A stretch of DNA of 52,779 nt from Acidobacteriota bacterium. Its GTDB lineage: Bacteria > Acidobacteriota > Terriglobia > Acidiferrales > UBA7541. Positions 7,418 to 34,332 of the stretch are shown in pieces. The notes under the pieces were generated by a model. The model saw nothing but the letters and a program-made list of their open reading frames with translations, ran no database searches and was not told where the DNA came from. Position numbers and translations under genes: made by a program. How positions within the stretch are numbered: the stretch's first letter is position 1; each line of letters begins with the position of its first letter. Location: NCBI GenBank assembly GCA_013286165.1, contig JABDGF010000010.1, positions 1 through 52,779 on the forward strand, written 5' to 3'.

Positions 7418-7778
7418 CGATCGACCGTCTGGTTCACCTTATCGCGCCGTTCCGGCAGTCCGTAAACTCTTCACCGTTCGTATGTCTTACCGATAACGAC
7501 ACTTCGATGTATTTCCAGGGGTTGAGCTATCGAGTCCGACACATGAAAGGACCGACATAGTTGCCTATCATTTCGGGGCACCGTATCAATTGATAACGGT
7601 CAACGGCTCGCATTGTAAGCGAGGTTTTCTAACCGCGATCGCCAAAGCGCCAGCCCAAGCGCGAGTCGGTGCATAGGCAGTTGTTTCATTTCGGAACATC
7701 ACTGACGAAGAATTCCGATGGTTGGGCAGCGACCAAACTCTTTATTAGAACAGTCCGGTCGTGCAACGAGAGCAGTTT
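7418..7778. other. Intergenic region between divergent ABC operon and hybrid kinase
   Basis: No convincing gene lies in this 361-bp stretch. It must hold the promoters for the leftward ABC operon and the rightward kinase. The one clear structural element is the imperfect palindrome at 7580-7600. No promoter hexamers with good spacing were found by eye. Confidence 0.5.
7580..7600. promoter_or_regulatory. Palindrome, candidate operator
   Basis: The core CCGTATCAATTGATAACGG reads as two arms CCGTATCAAT and ATTGATAACGG that differ by one extra T. The inner TATCAATTGATA is a perfect 12-bp palindrome. It lies between the divergent ABC-operon and hybrid-kinase genes, where a regulator could control both. 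No regulator is assigned. Confidence 0.4.
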
Positions 7779-10331
7779 ATGCAATCTAAGATTGGCCAAA
7801 ATAGTCCGCGTTCATCGCGAACGCAAAACGACATTCGATGGACGCGCCACATCATAACTGGCGTGGTTTTTGCCGCCGTGTACTACGGTCTGGATTACAC
7901 GGCCGTGAATCTTCAGATCGCCCCTGGTGTAAGTGCATGGTATCCGCCTTCCGCGCTATCTCTGGTCTTGCTGTCAGGCATCAGCCTCTGGTACTCGCCC
8001 GTCGTTTTTCTCGTTGGAATGATCGCGGAGGTTGTTAATTACCACCAATCTCCGTTTGCGCCTTACACCGTCATCGAAACCGCGGACGTCGCGATCGGCT
8101 ATCTCGTTGCGGCAGCTATCCTGCGCAAGTATCTGAAGCTCGATCGAATGTTTCACCGCGTCCGAGATTTTGGCTGGTATTTCGGGATCGTCGCTACGGC
8201 CGCGTTTTGCGTCGCGGTCCTGGGCGTGGCCATGCTCGAACTATCCAGTCCGGAGTTGCACGTGCCCTACTGGCGGACAGTCTTCAATTGGTGGGTGGGC
8301 GACACTGTCGCTCTGGTCAGCGTGGCGCCGTTTCTCTTTCTCTACGTCTTACCGCACCTGCGGCACTGGCTGGGCATTCGCGGCGGCGGCGACACGCGCC
8401 AGTGGCTGGATCCCATTCTACCCACGAAACCCTTGAGCGGTTGGCAACGAGTCGTCTTGAGTTCTCAGTTTGCCGTTGCAATCTTCACGCTCTGGCTCGT
8501 TTTTGGCACTCGCGTGGGTAATCACTTCGATTTGTTGTACCTCTGTTTCGTTCCCGTCGTCTGGATCGCAGCAAGCGGCGGCGCGCAACGCACAGCCATC
8601 GGGCTCATCGTCGTCAATTCCGGTGCTGTCGCTGCGGTCTTACTGATGCACCCGGTTTCATTTTCATTTGGGGAACTCCAGCTGCTGATGCTGGTGATTT
8701 CGGTGACCGGTGCCTCGTTAGGCGCGGCGGTTGACGAAAACACCTTCAATGAAACGAAACTCCGAACGAGTACGACACACCTCAACGCGCTGATCGACAA
8801 CAGCCCTCTCGCAATCGTGTCTTACGACCATGCAGGCCGAGTCACGATGGCAAATCCCGCATTCGAAAAGCTGTTTGGATACCTCCACGCCGAGATCGTC
8901 AACAGGCCGCTCGATCGGTTGATTACATCGTCGGAGTTCGAAGCCGAAGCTACCGAAATAATGAAGAGCATGAATTTCGGAGTCTCCGTTCACACCACCA
9001 CGAAACGGATCCGCCGGACCGGTGAGTTGGTCGTCGTTGAACTCTTCGGTGTGCCGCTCTACGCTGGCGGCGCGGTCAACGGTGGCTATGAAATCTACAA
9101 AGACGTCACCGATCAGAAAAAATTGGAAGAGGAACTCGCGCTTTCGCAGAAACTGCAAGCCGTAGGCCGCCTGGCGGGGGGCGTGGCTCATGATTTCAAC
9201 AATATTCTCGGCGTCGTTCAAGGTTACAGCGAGTACATGGTCGAGCAACTCCCGGCAACCGACCCGATGCGGGAAAGCGCCGAGGAAATCCTGCACTCCG
9301 CGCATCGCGGCTCGGGCCTTGTGCGGCAGCTGCTTTCATTCAGCCGCAAACAAGCCATCGAGCAGGTGGTTCTCGATCTGAACGCGGTGATGTCCAGCGT
9401 GCAGACTCTCATGACCAGACTGATTGGCGAAGATATCGACCTCAAGGTTCGATTGGCTCCTGAAGTCGGGCGAATCAAAGCGGATCCTGGTCAACTGGAA
9501 CAAATCATTCTCAACCTCGCCGTTAACGCACGAGACGCAATGCCGCGCGGCGGCGTGATCGAGCTTGAAACATCAAACTGCACCTCAGAGAATCCGGTCA
9601 CGTCACGCCTGGAGCCGTACGTGATGATGCTGTTCCGAGACTCCGGCGTCGGAATGTCGCAGGAGACTCTGAGCCACATTTTTGAGCCGTTTTTCACCAC
9701 GAAAGAAAAGGGCAAAGGTACCGGGCTCGGGTTGTCCACCGTTTACGGAATCGTTGAACAGAGCGGCGGTCAGGTTCGCGTGGAGAGCGAATTGGGTCGG
9801 GGCACAACCTTCCGAATCTATTTTCCCTGCGTGGATGCGCCGACCGTTGCGCGGCGTCCGGAGGAAACTCACGGCACTACGCTCGGCGGCGCCGAAACCA
9901 TCTTGCTGGTCGAAGACCAGGAGGAATTTCGGCGCATGATGGCGAACTACCTCACACGCCATGGCTACAACGTCTTGATCGCACGGAACGGCGCGGAAGC
10001 GATTCAGATTTCCAGCGCACGCCACGAATCGATCGATCTCCTGTTATCGGACGTCGTCATGCCTGGGATTCGCGGGCCGCTACTGGCCAAGATACTCGCG
10101 CAGTCTCGATCGGAAATGGCCGTGCTTTTCATGTCAGGCTACACGGATGGTTCACTCGACGATTCTCTGCAATCGAGGAATGCCTCGGGTAATTCTGGCA
10201 GCTATGGATTGATCTCGAAGCCGTTCACCTGGCAAGCACTCGGAACCAGAATTCGCGACGTGCTTGAAACGCCGCGGTTGAAACGGGAGATGAATGTGAG
10301 TTTGGGTTTGGACGATCTTGCACCACGGTAA
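7779..10331 (+). CDS. Hybrid histidine kinase (MASE1-PAS-HisKA-HATPase-REC)
   Basis: The protein has about 850 residues. A MASE1-like sensor with about eight membrane segments covers residues 25-310 (PGVSAWYPPSALSLVLL). A PAS domain follows at about 325-445 (LIDNSPLAIVSYDHAGRV). The HisKA box GGVAHDFNNILG carries phospho-acceptor His471. HATPase_c shows N-box NLAVNARDAMPRGG, DSGVGM and GKGTGLGLSTVYGIV. The C-terminal receiver (ILLVEDQEEF, SDVVMPG) has phospho-acceptor Asp758. The ATG at 7779 has a GAGAG stretch upstream, and a GTG at 7761 is an alternative. The response regulator gene 33 bp downstream is the likely phosphotransfer partner (inference). Confidence 0.93.
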   Translation: MQSKIGQNSPRSSRTQNDIRWTRHIITGVVFAAVYYGLDYTAVNLQIAPGVSAWYPPSALSLVLLSGISLWYSPVVFLVGMIAEVVNYHQSPFAPYTVIETADVAIGYLVAAAILRKYLKLDRMFHRVRDFGWYFGIVATAAFCVAVLGVAMLELSSPELHVPYWRTVFNWWVGDTVALVSVAPFLFLYVLPHLRHWLGIRGGGDTRQWLDPILPTKPLSGWQRVVLSSQFAVAIFTLWLVFGTRVGNHFDLLYLCFVPVVWIAASGGAQRTAIGLIVVNSGAVAAVLLMHPVSFSFGELQLLMLVISVTGASLGAAVDENTFNETKLRTSTTHLNALIDNSPLAIVSYDHAGRVTMANPAFEKLFGYLHAEIVNRPLDRLITSSEFEAEATEIMKSMNFGVSVHTTTKRIRRTGELVVVELFGVPLYAGGAVNGGYEIYKDVTDQKKLEEELALSQKLQAVGRLAGGVAHDFNNILGVVQGYSEYMVEQLPATDPMRESAEEILHSAHRGSGLVRQLLSFSRKQAIEQVVLDLNAVMSSVQTLMTRLIGEDIDLKVRLAPEVGRIKADPGQLEQIILNLAVNARDAMPRGGVIELETSNCTSENPVTSRLEPYVMMLFRDSGVGMSQETLSHIFEPFFTTKEKGKGTGLGLSTVYGIVEQSGGQVRVESELGRGTTFRIYFPCVDAPTVARRPEETHGTTLGGAETILLVEDQEEFRRMMANYLTRHGYNVLIARNGAEAIQISSARHESIDLLLSDVVMPGIRGPLLAKILAQSRSEMAVLFMSGYTDGSLDDSLQSRNASGNSGSYGLISKPFTWQALGTRIRDVLETPRLKREMNVSLGLDDLAPR

Positions 10332-10363: not shown

Positions 10364-11029
10364 ATGCCACGCATTTTGCTGATCGAAGACGACGAACAGA
10401 TGCGGAAACTCATCAAGCAGCGACTCTCGGACACTTACGAAGTGTTTGACACGGGAGACGGCACCGAAGCGTTGGGACTCGCATTGGAACACCGCCCGGA
10501 CGTCATACTGCTCGACCTCATGATGCCCCGCTACTCGGGTCTCGAACTCTGCCAGACGCTGTCGTCGGTCGGCCCGACCCAACGCATTCCGATTCTCGTC
10601 ATCACGGGAGACGCGAACGCCGACACAAAAGCCTACTGCCTGAATCTCGGCGCGTGGGACTACTTCGAAAAGCCCGTTGATTTCGCGCGGCTCAAAACCA
10701 CCCTGGCTAACATCCTGAAAGCGACTCCACAACCACAAGCCTCAGAAGCAACGGTTCACCTGAAAGTAATCGTCAAACTTCGCGGCACAGGCACACAGGG
10801 CAAAGAGTTCGAACTCCTTACCTGGACCGATGAAGTGAGCCCGTCTGGTTTTCTCTGTCGCTGCTCAGTGCCGGTCGCGAAAGAATCCACCGTGGAAGTC
10901 TTCGTGACGAGCCGGCAGGGCGAACGCCGCATTGGTGAAGCGGAATTGACGAACATTCAGTGGGAGAACATGCCTTGGCAAGCCTGCCAATTTAAATTCA
11001 GCGGCCCCGTCACGGATTGGGTTGTTTAA
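10364..11029 (+). CDS. Response regulator with PilZ-like C-terminal domain
   Basis: The protein has 221 residues and an excellent AAGGAG ribosome site. The receiver domain spans residues 1-120: acidic pair IEDDEQ, phospho-acceptor Asp51 in LLDLMMP, VITGDA, and FEKPVD. The C-terminal 95 residues form a beta-rich domain with DEVSPSGFLCRCSVPV, which resembles the D-x-S-x-x-G part of PilZ domains. The c-di-GMP-binding RxxxR motif is not evident, so the PilZ assignment is tentative and ligand binding is doubtful. No DNA-binding domain is present. It sits after the hybrid kinase and is convergent, 5 bp apart, with a diguanylate cyclase. Confidence 0.85.
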   Translation: MPRILLIEDDEQMRKLIKQRLSDTYEVFDTGDGTEALGLALEHRPDVILLDLMMPRYSGLELCQTLSSVGPTQRIPILVITGDANADTKAYCLNLGAWDYFEKPVDFARLKTTLANILKATPQPQASEATVHLKVIVKLRGTGTQGKEFELLTWTDEVSPSGFLCRCSVPVAKESTVEVFVTSRQGERRIGEAELTNIQWENMPWQACQFKFSGPVTDWVV

Positions 11030-12517: not shown

Positions 12518-12817
12518 AAGTTAATTCCGGCGGCGCGTCAGAGCGTTGAGCCGTGTTTCATTGGCGCTGAACTTTCCGTAACAGTGGGCATCACCCTCCG
12601 AAACGCTAGAATTCGCGCTTACACGCGCCAAGTTAAGTCCCTACGCTCCAGTAAGCTGCGCGACACGTGTTCCAGCCTGAAACGTAATGTTGCACTTTGC
12701 AACAGTGAAGTTCACAAGGCCGTCACCTATTTTATTCGCTATATCAATCTTGAACCACACGACTCCTTTCCCATAATGAAACGCGTACCACACCTGAACA
12801 CCGCTTCGGAGGAAGTC
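12518..12817. other. Upstream region of the giant lipoprotein gene
   Basis: The 300-bp stretch has no convincing gene. It contains a perfect 7-bp inverted repeat at 12688-12704 and an AT-richer tract around 12725-12750 (CTATTTTATTCGCTATATC). The latter could hold the promoter. Confidence 0.45.
12688..12704. promoter_or_regulatory. Perfect inverted repeat, candidate operator
   Basis: TGTTGCA-CTT-TGCAACA is a perfect 7-bp inverted repeat with a 3-bp spacer. It lies 114 bp before the lipoprotein start codon and 184 bp after the preceding gene. The position fits an operator, but no binding protein is assigned. Confidence 0.4.
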
Positions 12818-15800
12818 ATGAAGAAGATTCTCGCACTCGTAGCAGTCGTCACTCTCGTCGCGTTGTTCGCGACCGGCTGCGGCAACACCAGCGCAGGCGG
12901 ACAAAACGAACTCATCATTAGTCCGTCCTCAGCTCGTATCGATGCTGGGTCGTCCAAGACGTTCTCAGCTTCGTCTCCGAACGATTCGGCGTTCCAAGGT
13001 GTGAAGTGGACTCTCAGCGGCGCCGGCACATTGACCAACGCGACCGCTTACGATGTGACCTTCGTCGCATCGTCCACGGCGGGGACGGCGCAACTCACCG
13101 CGACGTCGATCTCAAACTCAGCCTTCGTCGCGACTGTGTCCGTCACGACGGACGCCGATCCGAAGATCTCGAGCGCCACGATGCCGACGGCCTGGATTGG
13201 CACGGCATACAATTCTTCGGTCGTGGCGACGGGCGGCGTTGCGCCACTCACGTTCGCGGTCACCTCTGGCTCGCTGCCGCCCGGCCTCTCACTGAATGGC
13301 TCCTCTGGCGCGATCACGGGGATTCCGACCACCGTTGGCTCTTACACGTTCACAGTGACGGTCACGGATTCCAATGTTCCACCGATGACGTTTGCATGGC
13401 CCATCACGATCAACGTCGCTAACCCGCTAGCCATCACGAAAGTCACTTTGCCGGCCGCGAATGTCGGCACCGCATATTCGTTTCAGCCAGCAGCGACCGG
13501 CGGAACCACGCCGTACACTTGGTCGATCTCCGCAGGCTCATTGCCTCCGAGCCTGACGCTCAATTCCACGACCGGCCAGATCAGCGGAATTCCGTCGGCG
13601 AATGGCACCTCGTCGTTCACGCTCCAGGTTTCGGATTCTTCTACTCCCGCGCAGACTGCTATGCTCTCCACAAGCGTCACGGTTGGAGGCCAGTCGAGCC
13701 AGCTCTCCATTCCCGCTCAGACGCTGCTGGATGCCACGGTCGGCGTCGCCTACTCGGGCGCGTTGCAGGCAAACGGTGGCAAAACTCCGTACACGTGGAC
13801 GGTTACCTCAGGCTCATTGCCCGCTGGGCTCAACCTGAACGCTTCAACTGGCGCGATTACCGGTACGGCGACCGCGGCTGCGACGTCGAACTTTACCGTT
13901 AAGGTCACGGACTCGTCTTCACCCGTGCAATCGGCCTCCGCCTCTTTGTCGCTGCGCGCTGACGCTGCATTCTCGATCAGCATCTCGGCCTTGCCGGCGG
14001 CGTTCAAGTCCGTCCCCTACACCGCCACCCTCACCGCCACGGGTGCGGTTGGAGCGACCACCTGGGAGGTCACGAACGGCAGTTTGCCGGCCGGACTTTC
14101 GCTGAACGCATCAACCGGCGTTATCTCCGGCACGCCTTCTGCCGTCGGCACGTCCAGCTTCACGTTGCAGTGCACGGACTCTGCAACTCCTCCACGCACA
14201 GCAACACAAGTTGTCAATTTGGTTGTCAACTTGCAGCTCACTCTTAGTTCTCCCGTATTGCCCAATGGCACCATCGGAGTTGCGTACAACTCCACTCCGG
14301 CCGCCACGGGTGGCACTGCGCCGATCACGTGGAGCATCACGGCTGGTGCATTGCCTCCGGGTCTCTCATTGAACGCGGCAACTGGCGCAATCGCCGGCAC
14401 GCCGACCACGGCTGGCACGTACAACTTCACACTTCAACTCAAAGACTCATCGTCACCGGCGCAAACAGCGTCGGCGCAAGCGACGATCATCATCAACTCG
14501 CCGCTGTCAGTCACGATCCCTGTTTTGCCGAATGCAATTTTGAACGTACTCTACTCAACGACGCTCAAAACAACCGGCGCAGTAGGCCCGCTCACATGGT
14601 CGATTTCAGCAGGATCCCTGCCAACCGGCTTAACGCTCAACGCAACCACGGGCGTCATCACCGGCACGCCGACGGTAACGGGTCTCGCGACGTTCACCGT
14701 TAAAGTCGCTGACTCTGCAGTCCCGCCGCGGTCGGCTACAGCGCAAACGACGATCCTTGTCGTCGGCGCCCTTTCGATCTCGGGTGGCACGCTGCCAAAT
14801 GCCGTCAGTGGCACCGCATACTCCGCCACGCCAATCGTGACGGGTGGTACTCCGCCGCTCACGTGGTCTGTCTCGGCGGGCATTTTGCCTCCGGGCTTGT
14901 CGCTCAATCCAACGACGGGTGCGATCTCCGGCACTCCTACAACGCCGGGTGTTTACGCCTTCACGCTTCATGTCACCGATTCCTCCACGCCACTTCAGTC
15001 GGCGAATATCAACGCGACGATCACGGTAAACGCCGCGCTCGCGCTGACCGTGCCGACGCTGCCTGACGCAATCTCCGGTGTGCCTTACGTTGACACCCTG
15101 ATCGCGACGGGCGGCACGCTGCCGTACACCTGGTCCATCACGTCCGGCGCTCTGCCCGCGGGATTGACTTTGAATCCGACCACTGGCTTGATCGCCGGCA
15201 CGACGACGGCGACGGGCACCTCGAATTTCACGGTGACCCTCAATGACTCGGCGCAGCCTGCGCAAGCCAAGTCGTTCAATCTGAGCATTCGTGTGGATTC
15301 GGATCTGACCATCAGCCCAATTACGCTTCCGACCGGCATCGTCGGCTTGCCTCTGAGCACGACGATCTCGGCCTCCGGCGGCGTCGGTCCGCTTACGTAC
15401 TCCGTCTCCGCCGGCGTTCTGCCGAACGGACTTTCACTTAACGCAGCGACCGGCGTGATTTCCGGTACGCCGCTCTCGGTCGGCACGGGAGCCTTCACGA
15501 TTCAAGTGAAAGACTCTTCGAACCCGCCGCAAATTAAGACCACTGCGTCACTCTCGCTCGTCATCGACGCCGCGCTCAGCATAAACACCACCACTTTGCC
15601 GGGTGCAATCTCGGGCGTTCTGTACAACACGACGCTCTCGGCCAGCGGCGGCGTTGGCCCGATCACGTGGTCGGTCACTGCAGGCGCCTTGCCCACCGGC
15701 TTGACGCTGAATGCATCGACCGGCTTAATCTCGGGCAGCTCCACTGCGCTGGGTCTCGCCAGCTTCACGGTTCAGGCGAAAGACTCCAACACTCCTGCTG

Positions 15801-18295
15801 ACGTCAAGACTCTGGCCGTCACGATCCTTGTGACGCCGGTGCTCACGATCTCAACCTCAACTCTGCCAAACCCAATCCTGAGTGTGCTCTACTCCACCAC
15901 GCTCACGGCTACGGGTGGTACCGGACCGATTACCTGGTCCGTCTCCGCTGGTGCCTTGCCCACGGGCTTGACCCTGAACGCAACCACCGGCGTCATCTCT
16001 GGTATCCCCGGTTTGGCAGGACTCACTAACTTCAGCGTGACCGCGACGGACTCGTCCACGCCTGCGCAGACGAAGACGGTCGCTCTCTCGCTGCAAATCA
16101 ACACGGCGCTGACATTCCCGGTCACTTCGCTGCTCAACGCCGTGCTGGGCAATCTCTACAACACGACGCTCACCGCATCGGGCGGCGTTGCTCCGATCAC
16201 GTATTCCGTTACTGCCGGCAATCTGCCGCTCGGTCTCTCGCTCAGCACGGGCGGTGTGATCAGCGGTACGCCGACGGCTCTCGGCACTGCATCCTTCACG
16301 GTCACGGCAAAGGATTCGTCGAATCCGCCGCAAACCAAATCTGTGGCGCTCAGCATCTTGACGAATCCGCTGCTCTCAATCGTCTCGTCCACGCTTCCGA
16401 ACGACGTCATCGGTGCTCTCTACAACACGACGCTGACGACCACCGGCGGCGTGGCACCGATCAAGTGGGCAGTCACGGGCGGCACGATGCCCACCGGACT
16501 CTCGCTCAGCGCCACTACCGGGATCATCAGCGGAACTCCGACGGCTCTCGCGTCGGGCGCCGTGATCGTACAAGCGACGGACTCCTCGAATCCGCCGCAG
16601 GTACAGAACGTCTCGCTCAACCTCTCAGTCTTCGCAAAGTTGGGAATCACTCCGATCACGCTCGCTCCGGGATTGCTGAACCTCTCGCTCGACGCCTCGC
16701 TCGCGGCAACGGGCGGCAACGCACCTTACACATGGTCCGTCGTTTCCGGCACGCTGCCGCTCGGCGTCACGCTGGACGCAACCACCGGCGTTCTCTCCGG
16801 CACTCCAACCGTACTCGGATTGTTCAACTTCACCGTCCAAGTGACGGACTCCGCCGTGCCGGCTCAAACTGCAACCCTAGCACTGGGTCTGAATGTCGAT
16901 TCGCCTGGAGTGAATAACAACCTGCTCAACGGCGACTATGCGTTCATGTTCCAGGGCTCGAACGAAGCCGGTCCCGTGGCGATCGTCGGTAGCCTGCAGA
17001 CGGACGGCACCGGCAATGTGACCAGCGGCGTGCTTGACGTGAGCCAGTCCACCGGCGTCACGCAGAACGTTGCGCTCACTTCCGGCAACCTGACCATTAA
17101 CTCCGACAACCGCGGCACGTTGACGTTTACCACTCCGACCCTCGGCACCCAGAACTTCCGCGTCGCAGTAGATGCGGCGGGTGCGCTGGTTCGCGTCATC
17201 GAAGCCGATGTCGCAGGCACGGGCACGATCCGCGGCAACGGTGTCATCAAGAAGCAGGATCCGTCCGCGTTCTCCGATTCGAACATCAGCTCCGCGCTTG
17301 CCTTCGAACTTGAAGGCAATACCCTGGCGGGCGGCCGCTCGGCTGTCATCGGAAGTTTGGTCACCGACGGCGGTGGAAAGATCACTTCGGGTCTGCTGGA
17401 CGCGAACTCGGCGGGCACCGTGCACTCGAGCATCGCGGTCGCGAACACGTCAACGTACTCTATTACTGGTGCGACGACGGGGCGCGGCACGATCGCTCTT
17501 AACGCCGGCGCCCTCGGGACCGTTAACGGCGTGATTTACGTCGTGAACTCTACCGATATCTTCTTCCTCCGCACGGACGCGCTCGCTTCTGGCGTGGACA
17601 TGCTAAGTGGAGAAATCTTGGGTCAATCGGGAGCCTTCGGTGTCCTTCCGGCAGGCACGGGCGTGCTCCACGTGGCGGGTAACTCGTCCACGAACGCCTC
17701 GACGTCGGTCGGCGCGGGTGTCGTAGTCAGCACTGGCCTCGGCATCCTCACTGGAACGTACGATTCAAACGACGGCGGTACCGTCAGCTCGAATCTGGGC
17801 GTCACGCTCGGCGGGAACACCGTCTCGAACGCAACGGCTGGCCGCGGGACTCTGACCTTCGCGGGTCAAAACCTCACGATGTACTTCATCACTGACAACG
17901 AGGCCTTCGTGATGGACGCTTCAGGCACAGAGGTGAAGACCGGCATGCTCGAACCGCAGATCGGCTTCCCGCTCACGCTTTTGAACCTCCAGACGATCAA
18001 CTACATCACCGGCAGCCAGGGCGTAATCAACCCCGGTGCCACTTTCCAGTCGGGCGTCGAAACTGTCAGTCCGATTAACAGCCTCACTGGCACCGTCGCC
18101 GCCACGCTCGATACGAACGCGGTCGGCGCCGTCATCAACGTCGGGGACCTGCTGTCCTTGAACCTGACGTTGGCCGCCAACGGTCGCATCAGCGCCGGCA
18201 ACACTATCTATTACCTCGTCGGGACGAATCGGGTTGTCGCGGTGGAAGTTGGCGCCGGCAATCTGCAGGCCCGGGTCCTGGTGGCCGATAAATAG
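12818..18295 (+). CDS. Giant lipoprotein with 14 putative-Ig repeats
   Basis: The protein has 1825 residues. The ATG at 12818 follows a perfect GGAGGAAG site. It begins MKKILALVAVVTLVALFATG and then Cys, a signal-peptidase-II lipobox. After one Ig-like domain (about residues 30-115) come 14 tandem repeats of 86-90 residues. These match the putative-Ig (He_PIG) pattern: LP.GL.LN..TG.ISGTPT..G...FTV...DSS.P. The last 460 residues are non-repetitive and contain GDYAFMFQGSN-type segments, a C-terminal module often found in acidobacterial surface proteins. It is probably anchored in the outer membrane and used for adhesion or a cell-surface lattice (inference). Several repeats have lost canonical residues, for example repeat 12. 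Confidence 0.88.
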   Translation: MKKILALVAVVTLVALFATGCGNTSAGGQNELIISPSSARIDAGSSKTFSASSPNDSAFQGVKWTLSGAGTLTNATAYDVTFVASSTAGTAQLTATSISNSAFVATVSVTTDADPKISSATMPTAWIGTAYNSSVVATGGVAPLTFAVTSGSLPPGLSLNGSSGAITGIPTTVGSYTFTVTVTDSNVPPMTFAWPITINVANPLAITKVTLPAANVGTAYSFQPAATGGTTPYTWSISAGSLPPSLTLNSTTGQISGIPSANGTSSFTLQVSDSSTPAQTAMLSTSVTVGGQSSQLSIPAQTLLDATVGVAYSGALQANGGKTPYTWTVTSGSLPAGLNLNASTGAITGTATAAATSNFTVKVTDSSSPVQSASASLSLRADAAFSISISALPAAFKSVPYTATLTATGAVGATTWEVTNGSLPAGLSLNASTGVISGTPSAVGTSSFTLQCTDSATPPRTATQVVNLVVNLQLTLSSPVLPNGTIGVAYNSTPAATGGTAPITWSITAGALPPGLSLNAATGAIAGTPTTAGTYNFTLQLKDSSSPAQTASAQATIIINSPLSVTIPVLPNAILNVLYSTTLKTTGAVGPLTWSISAGSLPTGLTLNATTGVITGTPTVTGLATFTVKVADSAVPPRSATAQTTILVVGALSISGGTLPNAVSGTAYSATPIVTGGTPPLTWSVSAGILPPGLSLNPTTGAISGTPTTPGVYAFTLHVTDSSTPLQSANINATITVNAALALTVPTLPDAISGVPYVDTLIATGGTLPYTWSITSGALPAGLTLNPTTGLIAGTTTATGTSNFTVTLNDSAQPAQAKSFNLSIRVDSDLTISPITLPTGIVGLPLSTTISASGGVGPLTYSVSAGVLPNGLSLNAATGVISGTPLSVGTGAFTIQVKDSSNPPQIKTTASLSLVIDAALSINTTTLPGAISGVLYNTTLSASGGVGPITWSVTAGALPTGLTLNASTGLISGSSTALGLASFTVQAKDSNTPADVKTLAVTILVTPVLTISTSTLPNPILSVLYSTTLTATGGTGPITWSVSAGALPTGLTLNATTGVISGIPGLAGLTNFSVTATDSSTPAQTKTVALSLQINTALTFPVTSLLNAVLGNLYNTTLTASGGVAPITYSVTAGNLPLGLSLSTGGVISGTPTALGTASFTVTAKDSSNPPQTKSVALSILTNPLLSIVSSTLPNDVIGALYNTTLTTTGGVAPIKWAVTGGTMPTGLSLSATTGIISGTPTALASGAVIVQATDSSNPPQVQNVSLNLSVFAKLGITPITLAPGLLNLSLDASLAATGGNAPYTWSVVSGTLPLGVTLDATTGVLSGTPTVLGLFNFTVQVTDSAVPAQTATLALGLNVDSPGVNNNLLNGDYAFMFQGSNEAGPVAIVGSLQTDGTGNVTSGVLDVSQSTGVTQNVALTSGNLTINSDNRGTLTFTTPTLGTQNFRVAVDAAGALVRVIEADVAGTGTIRGNGVIKKQDPSAFSDSNISSALAFELEGNTLAGGRSAVIGSLVTDGGGKITSGLLDANSAGTVHSSIAVANTSTYSITGATTGRGTIALNAGALGTVNGVIYVVNSTDIFFLRTDALASGVDMLSGEILGQSGAFGVLPAGTGVLHVAGNSSTNASTSVGAGVVVSTGLGILTGTYDSNDGGTVSSNLGVTLGGNTVSNATAGRGTLTFAGQNLTMYFITDNEAFVMDASGTEVKTGMLEPQIGFPLTLLNLQTINYITGSQGVINPGATFQSGVETVSPINSLTGTVAATLDTNAVGAVINVGDLLSLNLTLAANGRISAGNTIYYLVGTNRVVAVEVGAGNLQARVLVADK
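13160..16905 (+). repeat. Tandem repeat array encoding 14 putative-Ig domains
   Basis: Fourteen units of about 258-273 bp lie in frame inside the lipoprotein gene. Translated units align across their whole length, and the DNA is diverged between units. Units 10, 11 and 13 look most alike (share LYNTTL or LYSTTL and the TLP start). The divergence argues for an old expansion rather than recent slippage, although a length polymorphism cannot be excluded. Confidence 0.85.
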
Positions 18296-18429: not shown

Positions 18430-19824
18430 ATGTCAGCTACCGAATCGCGCCGGGATTTGATGGCACGCAGAGCGGAACTCAGGGTTTGTGTGGTGGATGA
18501 CGACCCAGCCCTCGTGAAAATCACCTCCCGCCGTTTGAAACAAGCGGGTTTCGATGCAGAAGGCACCACCGATCCGGCCGATGCACTGCTCGGAGTGAGA
18601 GCCAGCAAGTATCACGTGGTTGTTCTCGACATCAAGATGCCGGGAATGTCTGGCCACGAGTTCCTAGAAAAGGCTCTTCCGATCGACCCCGCGCTGCTCG
18701 TGATTCTCGTCACAGGCTACTATTCAATCGAGTCCGCCATAGGCGCAATCAAGAAAGGCGCGAGCGACTATCTGTGCAAGCCGCTCGAATTCGACCGCTT
18801 ACTCGCTACGCTCGATGAATTCGCTCTTCAGGCGGCCGAGAAGATGCACGCGCGGCAACTCGACGAGCAGCTTCTGCTCAATGCCGACTTTCAGGGCATC
18901 ATCGGCAAAAGTCCCGCGATGCTCGAAGTTTTCGATCAACTCCGCAAAATCTCGCGGCACTTCACGACGGTACTAATGTCCGGCGCGACCGGCTCCGGTA
19001 AAGAAGTCGTCGCGCGCGCGCTGCACACTCTGAGCCCTGCAGGCCGTAGCGAATTTCATCTCTGTACGTGTTCCGCTCTCGAAGATATCTCGCTCGACGA
19101 CGGCATTCTTCATTGGAAGCAAATGGCAAACCTCGACCGGCCACTCGTGACTGTCAACCCTGCCGAGTCAGGCACGCTGTTCCTCGATGAAGTCACCGAA
19201 CTACCGTTGCACCTGCAAGGTGCGTTGCTAGCAACTCTTCAGAACATCGAGACTGGACGCTCACGCGGCAACGACACGGCCACTGGTCTCCGTATCATCG
19301 CGTCGTCGAGCCACGATCTGAAAGAAGAGGTGACGGCGAATCGTTTTCGCGAGGATCTATACTTCCGCCTCGCGCCCCTCGAGGTTCGCGTTCCGACGTT
19401 GGCGCAACGAGCTCAGGACATTCCCCTGCTCGTTCAACACTTTCTGCGAACTTGGAATTCCGTGTACGGCACCTCGTTCCGCGGCCTGACCCGTCGCGCT
19501 CAAATCGCGTTGCTTCACTACACTTGGGCCGGCAATGTCCGCGAACTGGAGCACACCATCTGTGGCGCGATGATGGTGGGTTCGGGTGCTTTCATCGACA
19601 TCCGCGACCTCCCCAAACACGTCCAGAACCCGGGACGCACCCAGCCCACGCCAGATTGGAAACCGATGAGCCTGGCCGACCTTCGACGCACGCACGTCGA
19701 TCGCGTCCTCCAGGTGGCGGAGAATCTGACGCAGGCCGCAGCGATTCTGGGTATAGGGCGCACCAGCCTCTACCGCTTCCTCAAACAGAAGACGGCAACC
19801 CAAGACCTCCAAAAAGTTTCTTAG
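18430..19824 (+). CDS. NtrC-like response regulator lacking the GAFTGA loop
   Basis: The protein has 464 residues. The receiver (about 18-130) has acidic pair VVDDDP, phospho-acceptor Asp67 and KPLEF. The AAA+ domain has Walker A GATGSGKE (185-192), Walker B TLFLDE (Asp253), the RFREDLYFRL arginine-finger region, and WAGNVRELEHTI. The C-terminal Fis-type helix-turn-helix reads LTQAAAILGIGRTSLYRFL. Between Walker A and B, where sigma54 activators carry GAFTGA, the sequence is DISLDDGILHWKQMANLDRP, so the sigma54-contact loop is missing. It may act with sigma70 polymerase or by DNA binding alone (inference). The ATG at 18430 is preferred; an in-frame ATG lies at 18385. The gene at 20434 is a paralogue. 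Confidence 0.88.
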   Translation: MSATESRRDLMARRAELRVCVVDDDPALVKITSRRLKQAGFDAEGTTDPADALLGVRASKYHVVVLDIKMPGMSGHEFLEKALPIDPALLVILVTGYYSIESAIGAIKKGASDYLCKPLEFDRLLATLDEFALQAAEKMHARQLDEQLLLNADFQGIIGKSPAMLEVFDQLRKISRHFTTVLMSGATGSGKEVVARALHTLSPAGRSEFHLCTCSALEDISLDDGILHWKQMANLDRPLVTVNPAESGTLFLDEVTELPLHLQGALLATLQNIETGRSRGNDTATGLRIIASSSHDLKEEVTANRFREDLYFRLAPLEVRVPTLAQRAQDIPLLVQHFLRTWNSVYGTSFRGLTRRAQIALLHYTWAGNVRELEHTICGAMMVGSGAFIDIRDLPKHVQNPGRTQPTPDWKPMSLADLRRTHVDRVLQVAENLTQAAAILGIGRTSLYRFLKQKTATQDLQKVS

Positions 19825-20433
19825 AAGTCTCGAGTTGCCCGGCCTCGCTAATGTCTGTGAGATAGATTGAATCGCGACTGGCTTTCGCGGGTGAAGGCTT
19901 ACAACCGCCTCACGCCACCACGACAACCAAGATTAGGGTTCCTTTGTCGTCGCTCGATCCCACGACAAGGAAGTTGTCAGGGAAGCTGGGCAATTTGGTC
20001 ACACCGTTAAGTCGTAGCTTTCGGCCTGAAGGTGAAGAACTGTCAGCGGTATTCTTCTTTCGCAGCTTCAAAATGCGCATCGGCGGCCCTCCCCGGGCTT
20101 ATTGCTGTTGATAAGGGTGCCCTCCGATGAGCTTGATTGGCGAAAGTCCTTTCGCCTCAACCTGTTCCAAGGTACAGGCGAAATTGGCGAAACCCGCTGG
20201 CGCCTTGCTGAACGCACCCGCCCTCGCATTTATTAAAAGATTCCTAACTCTACTAACCGCTTACTCATACGTAGAAATACCTAGCACATCAGTATTTATA
20301 CGGTCTTGCTCGCAAACTGAAAGCAGTGCTAAGTTCGCTTAGCGCGCCTTACTTGGCGTGCCCAAATATAACGGCCCTCGAACATCGCGCCAGCCTCGCC
20401 GGGAAGTCCGGTCCGGATTATCGGAGGTTGAAG
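19825..20433. other. 609-bp spacer between the two AAA+ regulator genes
   Basis: There is no large gene here. A possible 56-codon gene on the minus strand occupies 19910-20080. The segment 20225-20320 is clearly AT-richer than its surroundings and probably carries the promoter of the second regulator. No RNA gene was recognised. Confidence 0.5.
19910..20080 (-). CDS. Possible small hypothetical protein
   Basis: A 56-codon frame starts at ATG 20080 behind a GGGGAGGG ribosome site 7-8 bp upstream. The product is basic at the N-terminus (MRILKLRKKN), then contains KLPSFPDNFLVVGSSDDKG and ends in a hydrophobic TLILVVVVA. The good ribosome site and protein-like composition support it. Its short length and lack of a recognised family argue for caution. 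Confidence 0.35.
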   Translation of the reverse strand: MRILKLRKKNTADSSSPSGRKLRLNGVTKLPSFPDNFLVVGSSDDKGTLILVVVVA

Positions 20434-21840
20434 ATGGAGACAGGACCGACCGATCGCGTTCAGGAAGCACCGATGCGATCCGAATCTGAAGTAAAAAAGA
20501 ATAGAGCCCACTTTCCGGTCTGTGTCGTCGATGACGACGTTGCCCTTCTGAAGGTCACTGCACTCCTGCTAGAAAGCGCTGGCTTCCCCACAACGGCAAC
20601 TTCCGACCCCCACGTAGTGCTCCGCGACATTCGTGAGGGCCTATTTCGTGCGGCTCTGGTCGATATCAAGATGCCCGATCTCGACGGCTTCGTCTTCCTC
20701 GAAAAATCGCTTGAAATCGACCCCACCGTAAACGTAATTCTTGTCACCGGCTATTACTCCGTGAAATCGGCCACTATGGCGATCAAGCGGGGCGCGAGCG
20801 ACTACCTTTCAAAACCCGTGGAGCGCGATCGTCTGATCGGCACGCTCGACGAGTTGGCCGGTCTGGCTGCACAAAAACGCCAGGTCCGCGAACTCGAAGA
20901 GCAGATCCTCGTCAATTCTGAATTTCACGGCGTTATCGGGAAAAGCTCGCCGATGCTCGAACTGTTCGATCACGTCCGGCACGTGTCTCGGCATCGCACG
21001 AACGTCCTAATCAGTGGCCCACCGGGTGCCGGCAAAGAAATCGTAGGACGCGCACTTCACGCGGCGGGTCCATGCCGCGGCGAAGCGTTCGAGAAGTTCT
21101 TCTGTTCGGCGTTCGGAAACACCAACGGCGACGAGCACGCCGCTGCGCCCCGTTCGAACTCGAACGAAGCCGAGCGCGCGATCGAGGCTATTCACACGAG
21201 CAAATGCTCGACCCTGTATTTCGACGAAATCTCCGACATGCCGCCTGCGTTTCAAACGAAACTTCTCTCTCTCGTTCACGATCAGATTCTTGATTCCCAT
21301 CCGCGAATCGTTTCGGCCTCGCGGCGCGACATGCGCCAGGAAATCTCGTGCGGCCACTTCCGCGAGGATTTATTTTTCCGCCTGTGCCCGATCGAAATCC
21401 GCGTTCCGCCAATCGCCGATCGTGCCCCTGACGTACCGCTTCTGGTTCAGTTCTTCGTCAAGAAATACAACGCGCAGTACGGCAAGCATTTTCGAGGGCT
21501 CACCCGCCGCGCCCAGATCGCACTCCTTAAGCACGACTGGCCAGGCAACGTGCGCGAACTCGAAAACGTCATTGGCAGCGCTGTGATGGTTGGCTCAGGC
21601 ACGTTCGTGGACATCTCAGACCTCCCGCCGTACATCCAGAAGCCCGTCCTCCGCGAAACCGCGCCAAGCGACAATTGGAAGCCATCGACTCTGGCGGAAG
21701 CTCAGCATGAGCACATCACCCGTGTACTTAGCATGGCGGGGAACCTTACCCGAGCCGCGGAAATTCTGGGCGTCAGCCGCACAAGTCTCTATCGACTGCA
21801 GAGGCGATCGAGTCGAAAGTCGGGCCAGAGCAGCAACTAA
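20434..21840 (+). CDS. NtrC-like response regulator lacking the GAFTGA loop (paralogue)
   Basis: The protein has 468 residues. The ATG at 20434 follows GGAGG at 7 bp. The receiver has VVDDDV, phospho-acceptor Asp77 (LVDIKMPD) and KPVER. The AAA+ domain has Walker A GPPGAGKE (195-202), Walker B TLYFDE (Asp264), HFREDLFFRL and WPGNVRELENVIG. A Fis-type helix-turn-helix follows (LTRAAEILGVSRTSLYRLQ). As in the 18430 protein, the GAFTGA loop is absent and replaced by GNTNGDEHAAAPRSNSNEA. The two proteins are collinear and share rare features (VILVTGYYS, FRGLTRRAQIALL, VMVGSG), so they arose by duplication and then diverged. A sigma54-independent role is inferred. Confidence 0.88.
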   Translation: METGPTDRVQEAPMRSESEVKKNRAHFPVCVVDDDVALLKVTALLLESAGFPTTATSDPHVVLRDIREGLFRAALVDIKMPDLDGFVFLEKSLEIDPTVNVILVTGYYSVKSATMAIKRGASDYLSKPVERDRLIGTLDELAGLAAQKRQVRELEEQILVNSEFHGVIGKSSPMLELFDHVRHVSRHRTNVLISGPPGAGKEIVGRALHAAGPCRGEAFEKFFCSAFGNTNGDEHAAAPRSNSNEAERAIEAIHTSKCSTLYFDEISDMPPAFQTKLLSLVHDQILDSHPRIVSASRRDMRQEISCGHFREDLFFRLCPIEIRVPPIADRAPDVPLLVQFFVKKYNAQYGKHFRGLTRRAQIALLKHDWPGNVRELENVIGSAVMVGSGTFVDISDLPPYIQKPVLRETAPSDNWKPSTLAEAQHEHITRVLSMAGNLTRAAEILGVSRTSLYRLQRRSSRKSGQSSN

Positions 21841-22098: not shown

Positions 22099-22935
22099 AT
22101 GCCGGAGATCAGCAAGTCTGTTTCAACACACTTCAAGCCTTCGTTTCGTTCGTTGGTTATCGGGGCTTTCGTGCTTTCGTTGCCAATTTCGTGTCCTCTA
22201 CCGGCTGGTGCTCGGGCTCAGGAGGCATCAGCCCAGCAATTCTCCGCCACGACCAACAGCGCCGCCTTCTACGGCAACGAGTTCGAAACTTCCGTGCCAG
22301 GAAAGCCGTTCTCCGCGGTCGAAGAACGCGTCACGTCGTTTCGAACCGCCGATTCGAAACTCAAGGAACGTAGTGCCAGCATCACCCAAATTTATCGTGA
22401 TTCGCAGGGCCGCTTACGCGCCGATCGAAAAACCACCACGTACGACGGTCGCGGCATCGCCACCGAACGGCTCAGCACCTACATCGCGGATCCGGTCGTT
22501 CATACCATCCTAATTCTCGATCCTGAGCGCCGCACCGCGGTCGAGGTGCATTGGGAGCAGCCGAACGCCGCCGCGTCGCGCGCAACTCAGCAATCATCGA
22601 CCGGCGAACAGCACAACGAGATTCAAGTAAGGACTGAATCGCTCGGTGACCGTTCCATGGACGGCATGCACGTCGATGGGTCTCTGCGAGAACTCACAAT
22701 ACCCATCCGCGCCGAGCTGTACACTCGCGCCGTTGCCGTTTCCATCGAGACCTGGGTTTCGCGTGAACTAAGCGTTCCCGTTTGGTCGAGATCGGAAACC
22801 TCGTCGGGAGAGATCTCAACCACTACCCTCAGAGACGTCAATCGTTCTGAACCGAATTCTCACCTCTTCGAACTTCCTTCCAATTACAAACTCGCGTCCC
22901 CCGGTGCCGACTCCGTTTTCGCAATGTCGCGGTAG
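22099..22935 (+). CDS. Secreted hypothetical protein
   Basis: The protein has 278 residues. The ATG at 22099 follows GGGAG at 7 bp. A Sec signal peptide is visible (SFRSLVIGAFVLSLPISC..., likely cleaved near GARAQ). The mature part is beta-rich and polar, with EERVTSFRTADSKLKE, YRDSQGRLRADRKTT and DPVVHTILILDPERRTAVEV. It ends in SHLFELPSNYKLAS, a pattern of periplasmic proteins of unknown function in Acidobacteria. No catalytic motif was recognised. It is convergent with a small minus-strand frame, with a strong hairpin between them. Confidence 0.7.
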   Translation: MPEISKSVSTHFKPSFRSLVIGAFVLSLPISCPLPAGARAQEASAQQFSATTNSAAFYGNEFETSVPGKPFSAVEERVTSFRTADSKLKERSASITQIYRDSQGRLRADRKTTTYDGRGIATERLSTYIADPVVHTILILDPERRTAVEVHWEQPNAAASRATQQSSTGEQHNEIQVRTESLGDRSMDGMHVDGSLRELTIPIRAELYTRAVAVSIETWVSRELSVPVWSRSETSSGEISTTTLRDVNRSEPNSHLFELPSNYKLASPGADSVFAMSR

Positions 22936-22991: not shown

Positions 22992-23166
22992 AGACCCTCG
23001 GAGCTTCCGCAGTCTTCTCGGCCCCACTCCTGTTTCGCGCCGCAACCAACCATCCCAAGGCAGCGATCAGTGAAATGGCGATCGCTAACAGGTCGCGAAT
23101 CGTTCTGCGCACTTCGCGAGAAATATCACAGCCCTTCGGATCGAGCATCGCGTTCAATAGTGGCAT
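22984..23166 (-). CDS. Possible small membrane protein
   Basis: A 60-codon frame starts at ATG 23166 (MPLLNAMLDPKGCDISREVR), with GGGG 7-10 bp upstream. Residues 24-44 form one membrane segment (LLAIAISLIAALGWLVAA) with flanking arginines, then a charged tail. It is convergent with the secreted protein and divergent from the REC-MEDS gene. The membrane segment and flanking charges look genuine, but no family was recognised. Confidence 0.4.
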   Translation of the reverse strand: MPLLNAMLDPKGCDISREVRRTIRDLLAIAISLIAALGWLVAARNRSGAEKTAEAPRVSR

Positions 23167-23425
23167 GACGCATCCCCAAGAAATCCTTCCGAAAAGGGTG
23201 TGCAATCACTCGAACTCGATAGTCTCGTTTTGCTCTCTGCGATACGCGCTGATTGATCGGACTTGCGACCGCATCCTCCCCCTTGCCGCAATCCACTTGG
23301 CGAAACCACCGTCGTCTGACGGGCGCCAGTCTCACGAAGCTTCTGGGGAACCTGGAAGTCTCATCTCGCGTCCTTGCAATCCTCACCACGATTGGTGTAC
23401 GAAAGACGTTCCGAGGCTCGGTGAA

Positions 23426-24442
23426 GTGGCGATTCGTGTCCTCATCGCAGACGATTTTCCAGCCATCCGCAGCTCGATCAAGCGGCTGCTACAAATCCGC
23501 ACTGACATTTCGATCGTGGGCGAAGCCTCGAACTATGCGGACACGATCAACCAGATGCTGGCGATTCGCCCTGACGTTGTGTTGCTTGATCTTCAAATGT
23601 CCGCGCCGGTCGGATTCCAGCCCGAAAAAATTGAGGTCCTTGCCGCCGAATTCCGGTGCGTCGTCATCGCAATGTCGATCTGGTTTGACCGCGAATCTAC
23701 CGAGCTTTCCGAACGGCTCGGAGCCATTGCAAAACTGAATAAGAAGTCGCTCGCCGATGAACTGGTGCCGGCGATCCTCCGATTGGCAGCCGCCCGTGAG
23801 TACGACACTCAACCAGGGCAATCGCGGCATCAGTGCTTTATCTTCGATGGTGCTGCGTCTTACGGCCTCGCCAGGATGGCGGCTGCTTTGAAGCTGAGCC
23901 TCGACAAGGGCTACCGCTGTCTGTACTTCAATAGCCCGCCGATGGTGGCGGCAATGCGCGCCCATCTCGTGGCGAGCGGAATCGATATTGCGAGCGCTAT
24001 GGTGCAAACGAGCGTTGTGCTTTCATCCGAGCAAGCCCACATCGTTGACGGCCAGTTCGATATGCACGGGATGCTCAGTCTCGTGCGCGAAGGTGTCGAG
24101 CGAGCCGTGGACGACGGCTTCAAAGGACTTTGGGCCGCTGGAGACATGGCGTGGGAACTTGGCGCGGACAAGAATTTCGAACACCTGCTCGAGTACGAGT
24201 GGCGGCTCGAAGAAATGTTTGGCGACCAACCGGCTTTGTCGGGCGTTTGCCAGTACCACGTCGGCGCAGTCCCGAGGGAGGCGTTGCTTGACGCGGTGGC
24301 TTCTCACGGTTCGTTTTTCATCAATGAAGCACTCTCCCGCCCCAATACGCGCTACGTTCGCACGGACTCACCAGCCGCGCTGATGGCCCTTGACCGAGCC
24401 GGCCTCGACGAAGTGGTCGATCAGATCTGCTCCCACCTCTGA
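23426..24442 (+). CDS. REC-MEDS two-domain regulator
   Basis: The protein has 338 residues. The receiver covers 1-120 (RVLIADDFPAIRSSIKRLL, phospho-acceptor in VVLLDLQMS). The C-terminal 200 residues match the MEDS (DcmR-type sensory) domain: HQCFIFDGAASYG, GDMAWELG, LLEYEWRLEEMF, VCQYHVG. MEDS domains occur in regulators such as DcmR and in anti-sigma or kinase fusions, and their ligand is unknown. There is no DNA-binding domain, so signalling by protein contact is inferred. The GTG at 23426 is chosen because homology starts at once and GAGG lies about 9 bp upstream. The frame is open further upstream but encodes no recognisable domain. Confidence 0.82.
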   Translation: MAIRVLIADDFPAIRSSIKRLLQIRTDISIVGEASNYADTINQMLAIRPDVVLLDLQMSAPVGFQPEKIEVLAAEFRCVVIAMSIWFDRESTELSERLGAIAKLNKKSLADELVPAILRLAAAREYDTQPGQSRHQCFIFDGAASYGLARMAAALKLSLDKGYRCLYFNSPPMVAAMRAHLVASGIDIASAMVQTSVVLSSEQAHIVDGQFDMHGMLSLVREGVERAVDDGFKGLWAAGDMAWELGADKNFEHLLEYEWRLEEMFGDQPALSGVCQYHVGAVPREALLDAVASHGSFFINEALSRPNTRYVRTDSPAALMALDRAGLDEVVDQICSHL

Positions 24443-33231: not shown

Positions 33232-34332
33232 ATGGGTTTGAATAGTCTCAGATTTCCTCTGCAGAACGAGAAGCCTTGCTCCCAAGCTGAACCATCGATC
33301 GCGCATCGTGTAGGCCGAAACGACCCAGCAACAGCGCCGCCCGCCACGTTCGAAGGAATCATCGGAAAGAGTTCAGCACTTCGTCGCGTGCTGCAAATGG
33401 TCGAAACCGTGGCACGAGAAGACTCCACGGTCCTCCTGCTGGGCGAGACCGGCACGGGCAAAGAACTCATCGCGCGCGCAATACACGGCCACAGCTCTCG
33501 CAACGCGGGGCCATTCGTTAAGCTCAATTGCGCTGCAATCCCAACCGGCCTGCTCGAAAGCGAACTCTTCGGCCATGAGCGAGGATCGTTTACCGGAGCA
33601 ATCGCACAAAAGATCGGCCGCCTCGAACTCGCGCATCAGGGTTCGTTGTTCCTCGACGAAATGGGCGATATCCCTCTCGAACTTCAGCCCAAGCTCCTTC
33701 GCGTTTTGCAGGAGCGCGAATTCGAGCGGCTCGGAAGCACGCGCACCCAGAAGGTTGACGTCCGCATCGTTGCTGCCACCCACCGCGACCTGGAAGGAAT
33801 GATCATCGAAAAGCAATTTCGCAGCGACCTCTATTACCGCGTGAACGTTTTCCCCATCCAGGTACCTCCCTTGCGTGAACGCCCCGACGATATTCCGCTC
33901 TTAGTCGAGCATTTCGTAAAGCAAGCCACGCAACGAATGGGCAAGACGATCAATACGATTCCGCAGGAGACGGCCGACGCTCTAAGTGGTTACCGCTGGC
34001 CCGGCAACATCCGCGAATTGGAAAACGTAATCGAACGCGCGGTGATTCTAACTACCGGGCCTGTGTTACGGCTTTCGCCCCGCGACTTGAAGTCCCGCAT
34101 CATGCCCGGCCAAAACTCGGATCGCCAACAGACTCTCGAAGAAGTCGAACGTAATCACATTCTGAACACCTTGCGCGACACCCGGTGGGTGCTGTCCGGA
34201 GCCAGCGGCGCCGCAGCACGTTTGGGATTGAACCGTTCGACCCTCTACTTCCGCATGAAAAAACTCGGCATCACCAGGAGCGTTGAATCAGGACCTCGAA
34301 CACAGAAGCTCGTAGTGATGGAAAGAGAGTAG
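33232..34332 (+). CDS. Sigma54-dependent transcriptional activator without sensor domain
   Basis: The protein has 366 residues. AAA+ motifs are Walker A GETGTGKE (71-78), GSFTGA (118-123; a conservative variant of GAFTGA), Walker B SLFLDE, the FRSDLYYRVNVFPI arginine-finger region and WPGNIRELENVIERAVI. A Fis-type helix-turn-helix follows (ARLGLNRSTLYFRMKKLGI). The first 40 residues hold no recognised sensory domain, so it resembles PspF or a truncated FhlA-type protein. It should activate sigma54 polymerase from upstream sites. AGGGAG lies 8 bp before the ATG. Its two downstream neighbours on the same strand are separated by a 10-bp hairpin. Confidence 0.92.
   Translation: MGLNSLRFPLQNEKPCSQAEPSIAHRVGRNDPATAPPATFEGIIGKSSALRRVLQMVETVAREDSTVLLLGETGTGKELIARAIHGHSSRNAGPFVKLNCAAIPTGLLESELFGHERGSFTGAIAQKIGRLELAHQGSLFLDEMGDIPLELQPKLLRVLQEREFERLGSTRTQKVDVRIVAATHRDLEGMIIEKQFRSDLYYRVNVFPIQVPPLRERPDDIPLLVEHFVKQATQRMGKTINTIPQETADALSGYRWPGNIRELENVIERAVILTTGPVLRLSPRDLKSRIMPGQNSDRQQTLEEVERNHILNTLRDTRWVLSGASGAAARLGLNRSTLYFRMKKLGITRSVESGPRTQKLVVMERE

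Follow-up and report, generated by a model that had tools for sequence, protein, structure and literature searches.

The window analysed here is a stretch of 52,779 nucleotides from an Acidobacteriota genome (GenBank assembly GCA_013286165.1, contig JABDGF010000010.1), which encodes two NtrC-like response regulators lacking the GAFTGA motif, here named P1 and P2. P1 (464 residues, 18430..19824) and P2 (468 residues, 20434..21840) lie on the plus strand in open and complete frames, with about 600 bp between their coding regions. The P2 open reading frame (ORF) opens at GTG 20326, but the ATG at 20434, which is preceded by CGGAGG in the sequence read directly, is the more likely start. Both proteins match the Pfam domains Response_reg, Sigma54_activat, AAA_lid_14, and HTH_8, and they are 49% identical in a local alignment. 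Frames, domains, and alignment confirm the original prediction, made from the DNA letters, of two paralogous NtrC-like response regulators without GAFTGA that keep the receiver, Walker A and B, the arginine-finger region, and the Fis-type helix-turn-helix (HTH).

Neither P1 nor P2 has a GxFTGA in the stretch bounded by the switch-asparagine position and Walker B. The replacement of loop 1 in this stretch comprises residues 214-248 in P1 (19069..19173, plus strand) and residues 224-259 of 468 in P2 (21103..21210, plus strand). In length, the two segments fall a few residues short of the canonical segment, and they have hardly any sequence in common. Walker A is kept as GATGSGKE in P1 (18982..19005, plus strand) and as GPPGAGKE in P2 (21016..21039, plus strand). 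We also considered whether the motif had been lost to a frameshift or a misreading and rejected this; the other two same-strand frames show, by eye, nothing like GAFTGA, so a simple frameshift does not account for it.

The local comparator is a stand-alone activator (33232..34332, plus strand, identified by Pfam and motif reading). It does carry GSFTGA, as had been noted, but it is not adjacent to the pair, being about 11.4 kb off, and Pfam finds no receiver in it, so its architecture is unlike that of P1 and P2. The Sigma54_activat match scores 240.3 bits in this protein, against 105.6 bits in P1 and 77.8 bits in P2.

Positions lost and retained in P1 and P2

Loop 1 and loop 2 are described as the pair that engages sigma54, with an asparagine linking Walker B to loop 1, in passages of PMC2745333 and PMC7175178. 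As read from the alignment, the loss goes beyond GAFTGA and takes in loops 1 and 2 as well as the switch asparagine and the TN of sensor I. The switch asparagine is replaced by threonine in P1 and phenylalanine in P2, P1 has RSRGN as its loop 2 where P2 has a deletion, and the sensor I ATN has become SSS and ASR, respectively. The GAFTGA-containing members of the same protein family (e.g., L004 and L005), called canonical here, share the domain order, receiver, ATP site, and HTH with P1 and P2 but, unlike them, retain GxFTGA, the switch asparagine, an RVGSP-type loop 2, and the sensor I ATN; the closest are 45 to 50% identical to P1. Compared with the features of a sigma54 activator (bacterial enhancer-binding protein), P1 and P2 thus lack GAFTGA, loop 2, and the switch asparagine, whereas both have Walker A, the DE of Walker B, both arginine-finger arginines, and a GNVREL sensor II.

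The joint alignment has 117 columns in which at least 90% of the 123 canonical rows agree. Of these columns, 31 belong to sensor I, loop 2, or loop 1 (counted with the switch asparagine), and the conserved residue is present at 10 of them in P1 and at 5 in P2; of the 86 elsewhere, 76 are retained in P1 and 74 in P2. The Fisher test of segments versus elsewhere gives p values of 8e-9 for P1 and 3e-12 for P2, which serve as guide values, the segment borders having been set after the alignment was inspected and the columns not being independent. All 17 conserved receiver positions are present in both proteins, including the aspartate of the phosphorylation site, the threonine, and the lysine. The pattern looks like a selective loss of the sigma54-remodelling surface and not like decay. 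The sigma54 independence that the original prediction had suggested is thereby well supported at the sequence level, the elements of the sigma54-engaging surface being eroded and the rest largely kept.

It could be argued that a loop other than GAFTGA still contacts sigma54, given that neither protein falls more than a few residues short of the canonical length in the stretch joining the switch position to Walker B. We regard this as extremely improbable, since the P1 and P2 segments share almost no sequence, both proteins also lack loop 2, the switch asparagine, and the TN of sensor I, and loop 1 is modelled with confidence in neither predicted structure.

These structures are AlphaFold models built from alignments A2 and A3 (41 rows each), for which 39 loci were used from the set of 80 background activators described below, 43 having been tried and 4 dropped. 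The mean predicted local distance difference test (pLDDT) score is 81.0 for P1 and 84.4 for P2. In P1, it falls below 50 at residues 219-245 and 277-284, which comprise most of the replaced loop 1 plus loop 2. In a structure comparison with the P1 model, NtrX (PDB ID 5m7n) comes at rank 1 and VpsR (PDB ID 7v2b) at rank 12, where the likeness of VpsR is one of neighbour rank and not of residue-by-residue comparison. NtrX is also the best PDB sequence match of P2, with no GAFTGA in that alignment. Passages of PMC10274813 count both NtrX and VpsR (printed as VspR) among the proteins without the motif. Unlike P1 and P2, NtrX still has the switch asparagine, and its loop 2 reads RVGGT; the NtrX equivalog NF051870 matches P1 with 246.9 and P2 with 230.5 bits, below the curated NCBIfam score of 600.

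The protein family and the history of the pair

The P2 query gives a match at an E value of ≤1e-75 in 65 of 89 genomes of the bacterial family to which the source organism belongs, and the P1 query gives one at ≤1e-88 in 107 of 399 sampled genomes of the class. We read 72 members from the bacterial family, including P1 and P2. The class searches contributed another 55 loci, 2 of which again belong to the bacterial family. A partial match (L080 in G016) was excluded from the counts, its contig ending at the start of loop 1. Counting relatives without GAFTGA, as the original prediction had proposed, we found GxFTGA in 123 of the 127 aligned members (68/72 and 55/55) and missing in 4, namely, P1, P2, L044, and L172. 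As 123 of 127 members keep the motif, its absence from P1 and P2 is not a matter of chance. L044 (G103:C115) has a clean, in-frame deletion of 22 residues that removes loop 1 from an otherwise canonical member, and L172 (G092:C278) is an otherwise canonical member with GAFVGA.

A background set was obtained by a contig scan with two receiver motifs, keeping the best 80 of at least 592 matching stretches. This set consists of general activators at 29 to 37% identity, outside the P1/P2 family; among these best 80, G[ASKG]FTGA is found in 72, 5 have point variants, and 3 rows (L099, L107, and L122) were not extracted. The source genome, which is about 55% complete, has AAA+ family matches at 11 places, of which 5 carry GxFTGA, 2 carry GAFTSA or GAFTDA, 3 (P1, P2, and L295) lack the motif, and the last, a weak match of 24 bits, was left unread. 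The two variant activators, L204 and L205, both lie on contig C5. RpoN is encoded in 80 of the 89 genomes, so the bacterial family as a whole has sigma54.

In a tree of 75 rows, P1 and P2 are sisters with a support of 100/99, to be read with caution for long branches, and the sequences support the view that they are a paralogous pair. They fall inside the tree of the L004 family, with an exact place that varies between trees. A tree in which P1 and P2 form one clade with the genus orthologs is not rejected (p = 0.576) and has a slightly higher likelihood. When the two are left out in turn, P1 alone is basal, whereas P2 alone falls in a clade holding genus members. With the leave-one-out trees placing the two differently and the genus clade not rejected, the duplication may be a recent one inside the genus or an older one, and loop 1 may have been lost once or twice.

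Between P1 and P2, the Nei-Gojobori estimates of nonsynonymous (dN) and synonymous (dS) divergence are 0.44 and 2.58 for the whole protein, where dS is near saturation, and 0.92 and 1.28 for the 34 codons of the loop 1 segment. In the receiver, ATP site, lid, and HTH, dN is well under dS.

Proposed function and comparison with known regulators

GAFTGA-less regulators are already in print, and P1 and P2 add a case from this family. According to passages of PMC10274813, the NtrC proteins of Rhodobacter capsulatus and Caulobacter have a loop 1 deletion and are reported to act at sigma70 promoters, R. capsulatus NtrC activating through sigma70 in a manner that needs ATP binding rather than hydrolysis. 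P1 and P2 show the features of this kind of NtrC, namely, the receiver-AAA+-Fis architecture, the lost loop 1 motif, and the receiver aspartate, threonine, and lysine. The alphaproteobacterial proteins differ in having a separate origin, and they are likened to P1 and P2 on loop 1 alone. Parts of PMC3162934 list TyrR, DhaR, HupR, VpsR, and YplP together with about 110 deviating homologs and report TyrR, DhaR, and HupR to be sigma70 dependent. In TyrR, DhaR, HupR, and YplP, GAFTGA is described there as substituted or deleted, as in P1 and P2; they belong to other lineages and are likened by description. A passage of PMC12316311 uses the motif as a filter. Among the literature titles listed in our searches, we found none on GAFTGA-less proteins of this kind in Acidobacteria, which is no proof of absence.

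We propose that P1 and P2, paralogous NtrC-type regulators that lost the sigma54-remodelling parts of the AAA+ domain, now probably serve as phosphorylation- and ATP-gated DNA binders, acting at promoters not dependent on sigma54 or blocking canonical sites. An action like that of R. capsulatus NtrC is inferred because the retained parts serve phosphate, ATP, assembly, and DNA, whereas the lost parts push sigma54. Phosphorylation of the kept receiver aspartate together with ATP binding would bring about self-assembly by way of Walker A, the arginine fingers, and sensor II, all of which are still in place, and the retained Fis-type HTH would bind DNA. The output might be activation or repression at non-sigma54 promoters or the occupation of sites of a canonical member, and any remaining ATP hydrolysis would be uncoupled from sigma54.

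Several observations weigh against this proposal. The Walker B glutamate is present in P1 and P2, so ATP hydrolysis may still matter. In the P2 model, pLDDT falls below 50 only at residues 231-240, 10 residues of the replaced segment, and a helix follows this low-confidence stretch at 243-255; the models are limited to P1 and P2, without a canonical control. Neither rpoN nor a GAFTGA-containing copy of the P1/P2 family is found in the source genome, both results being uninformative at its completeness of about 55%. Sigma54 promoter-like sites in the window number 59 against 56 expected, which is chance level, and such sites were dropped as a clue to regulation. The branches of P1 and P2 measure 1.05 and 1.19, compared with a median end branch of 0.13, and these long branches would leave some room for early decay. 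Finally, no second genome among the 89 of the bacterial family and the 399 sampled from the class has a gene grouping with P1 and P2, so that conservation over time is not directly demonstrable.

The last two points, together with the incomplete source genome, speak for a reading in which P1 and P2 are drifting toward pseudogenes, with the loss of the loops as the first visible damage. We consider this very unlikely. Frames of 464 and 468 codons have stayed intact despite long divergence, the loss is concentrated in the remodelling loops, and the low dN relative to dS in the receiver, ATP site, lid, and HTH argues against drift.

The DNA binding region bears on a second alternative. The HTH stretch GIGRTSLYRFLK is common to P1 and the canonical member L004, which favours a shared operator, whereas P2 has GVSRTSLYRLQR at this place. 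P1 and P2 might thus act as antagonists that compete with the canonical member or join its rings, damping the sigma54 output, a reading which overlaps with the proposed occupation of canonical sites. The kept arginine fingers and other such oligomer-interface residues are consistent with it, as is the membership of P1, P2, and the canonical proteins in one family. The differing HTH stretch of P2, the lack of a canonical copy in the roughly 55% complete source genome, and the position of the pair outside the common neighbourhood of the canonical members speak against it, and we judge antagonism to be unlikely as the main role.

The original prediction had also suggested a hetero-oligomeric AAA+ ring of P1 and P2 as the working unit. 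The two are paralogous and neighbouring genes on the same strand, but their coding regions lie about 600 bp apart, and the active site is not divided between them: Walker A, Walker B, the arginine fingers, and sensor II are present in both. We found no positive evidence for the mixed ring and consider it improbable.

Our proposal of sigma54-independent, ATP-gated DNA binders has consequences beyond this locus. As P1 and P2 lie within a GAFTGA-containing family, the steps from sigma54 dependence to independence can be compared between relatives. The pair suggests that sensor I and the switch asparagine can disappear together with both loops while the ATP-site and ring-interface residues stay, so that one could test what ATP binding does in the absence of remodelling. 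The Sigma54_activat label, which is above the Pfam cutoff, would mark P1 and P2 as sigma54 interacting, probably wrongly.

A third AAA+ protein without GAFTGA, L295 (contig C1 of the source genome, 1537-2730, minus strand), adjoins a Poly_export gene (Pfam ID PF02563), and its NCBIfam alignments extend through the end of the HTH. It differs from P1 and P2 in being a stand-alone protein in which no receiver is seen by eye. Relatives of L295 occur in 55 of the 89 genomes of the bacterial family at an E value of ≤1e-60, and we read the 30 best-scoring loci (L300-L329). In all 30, GxFTGA is absent and the export gene lies within 1.5 kb. The switch asparagine is lost in 25 and kept in 5, no RVGG-type loop 2 is seen by eye, and the sensor I asparagine is found in only a few. 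The two arginine fingers are kept in 29 and 30 of the 30 loci, the sensor II arginine is kept, and the Walker B glutamate is kept in 20 and lost in 10. With GxFTGA and mostly also the switch asparagine missing, this family, which persists in many genomes, shows largely the same losses. The AAA+ proteins beside the export gene are possibly more interesting than P1 and P2.

This leads to a broader idea, which we put forward tentatively. The bacterial family might have repeatedly made sigma54-independent, ATP-gated DNA-binding switches out of sigma54-remodelling ATPases by shedding the same parts, in P1 and P2 (once, or once each), in the export-linked AAA+ proteins, and perhaps in the L044 protein of G103, with at least P1 keeping the ancestral operator while its output changed.

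Genomic surroundings

The commonest neighbours of the P1/P2 family at 20 loci are an M50 peptidase (13 loci), DnaX (13 loci), a 268-residue protein (13 loci), and a 160-residue protein (10 loci). The latter two have no Pfam match, and the 160-residue protein appears PilZ-like by eye. The M50 peptidase and DnaX are absent from the surroundings of P1 and P2, which thus lie outside the canonical setting. A giant lipoprotein upstream, to which the pair had been proposed to be linked, is in none of the clusters common to at least three loci when the 20 neighbourhoods and the window are compared, and the linkage finds no support. This lipoprotein-like protein (12584-18295, possible start 12818) has a lipobox-type start by eye and 14 He_PIG Ig-like stretches in Pfam.

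A secreted protein (22099-22935) was rejected as a linkage clue, belonging to a dispersed family with matches in 71 of the 89 genomes at 1e-8. The protein at 23075-24442 is a receiver fused to a MEDS (DcmR sensory) domain according to Pfam; a search with the part at 23438-24442 in 20 genomes of the genus at 1e-30 matched only the source genome.

The gap between P1 and P2 contains a perfect palindrome, GGCGAAAGTCCTTTCGCC (20139..20156, plus strand), which was found after the fact and may be an operator. Two copies of ATTGGCGAAA lie near it, and the gap also holds an ORF of 56 residues on the minus strand (19910-20080) with GGGGAGG upstream.

A candidate upstream kinase is encoded at 7761..10331 (plus strand), a hybrid histidine kinase with the order MASE1-PAS-HisKA-HATPase-receiver. 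In 2 of the 20 loci (L066 and L074), kinases resembling this one, with 42% and 40% identity across some 520 residues, adjoin GAFTGA-containing members, making the MASE1 hybrid kinase a possible, if weakly indicated, partner of P1 and P2. The protein at 10364-11029, which adjoins this kinase and a GGDEF protein, consists of a receiver followed by a C-terminal stretch that has no Pfam match and looks PilZ-like by eye.

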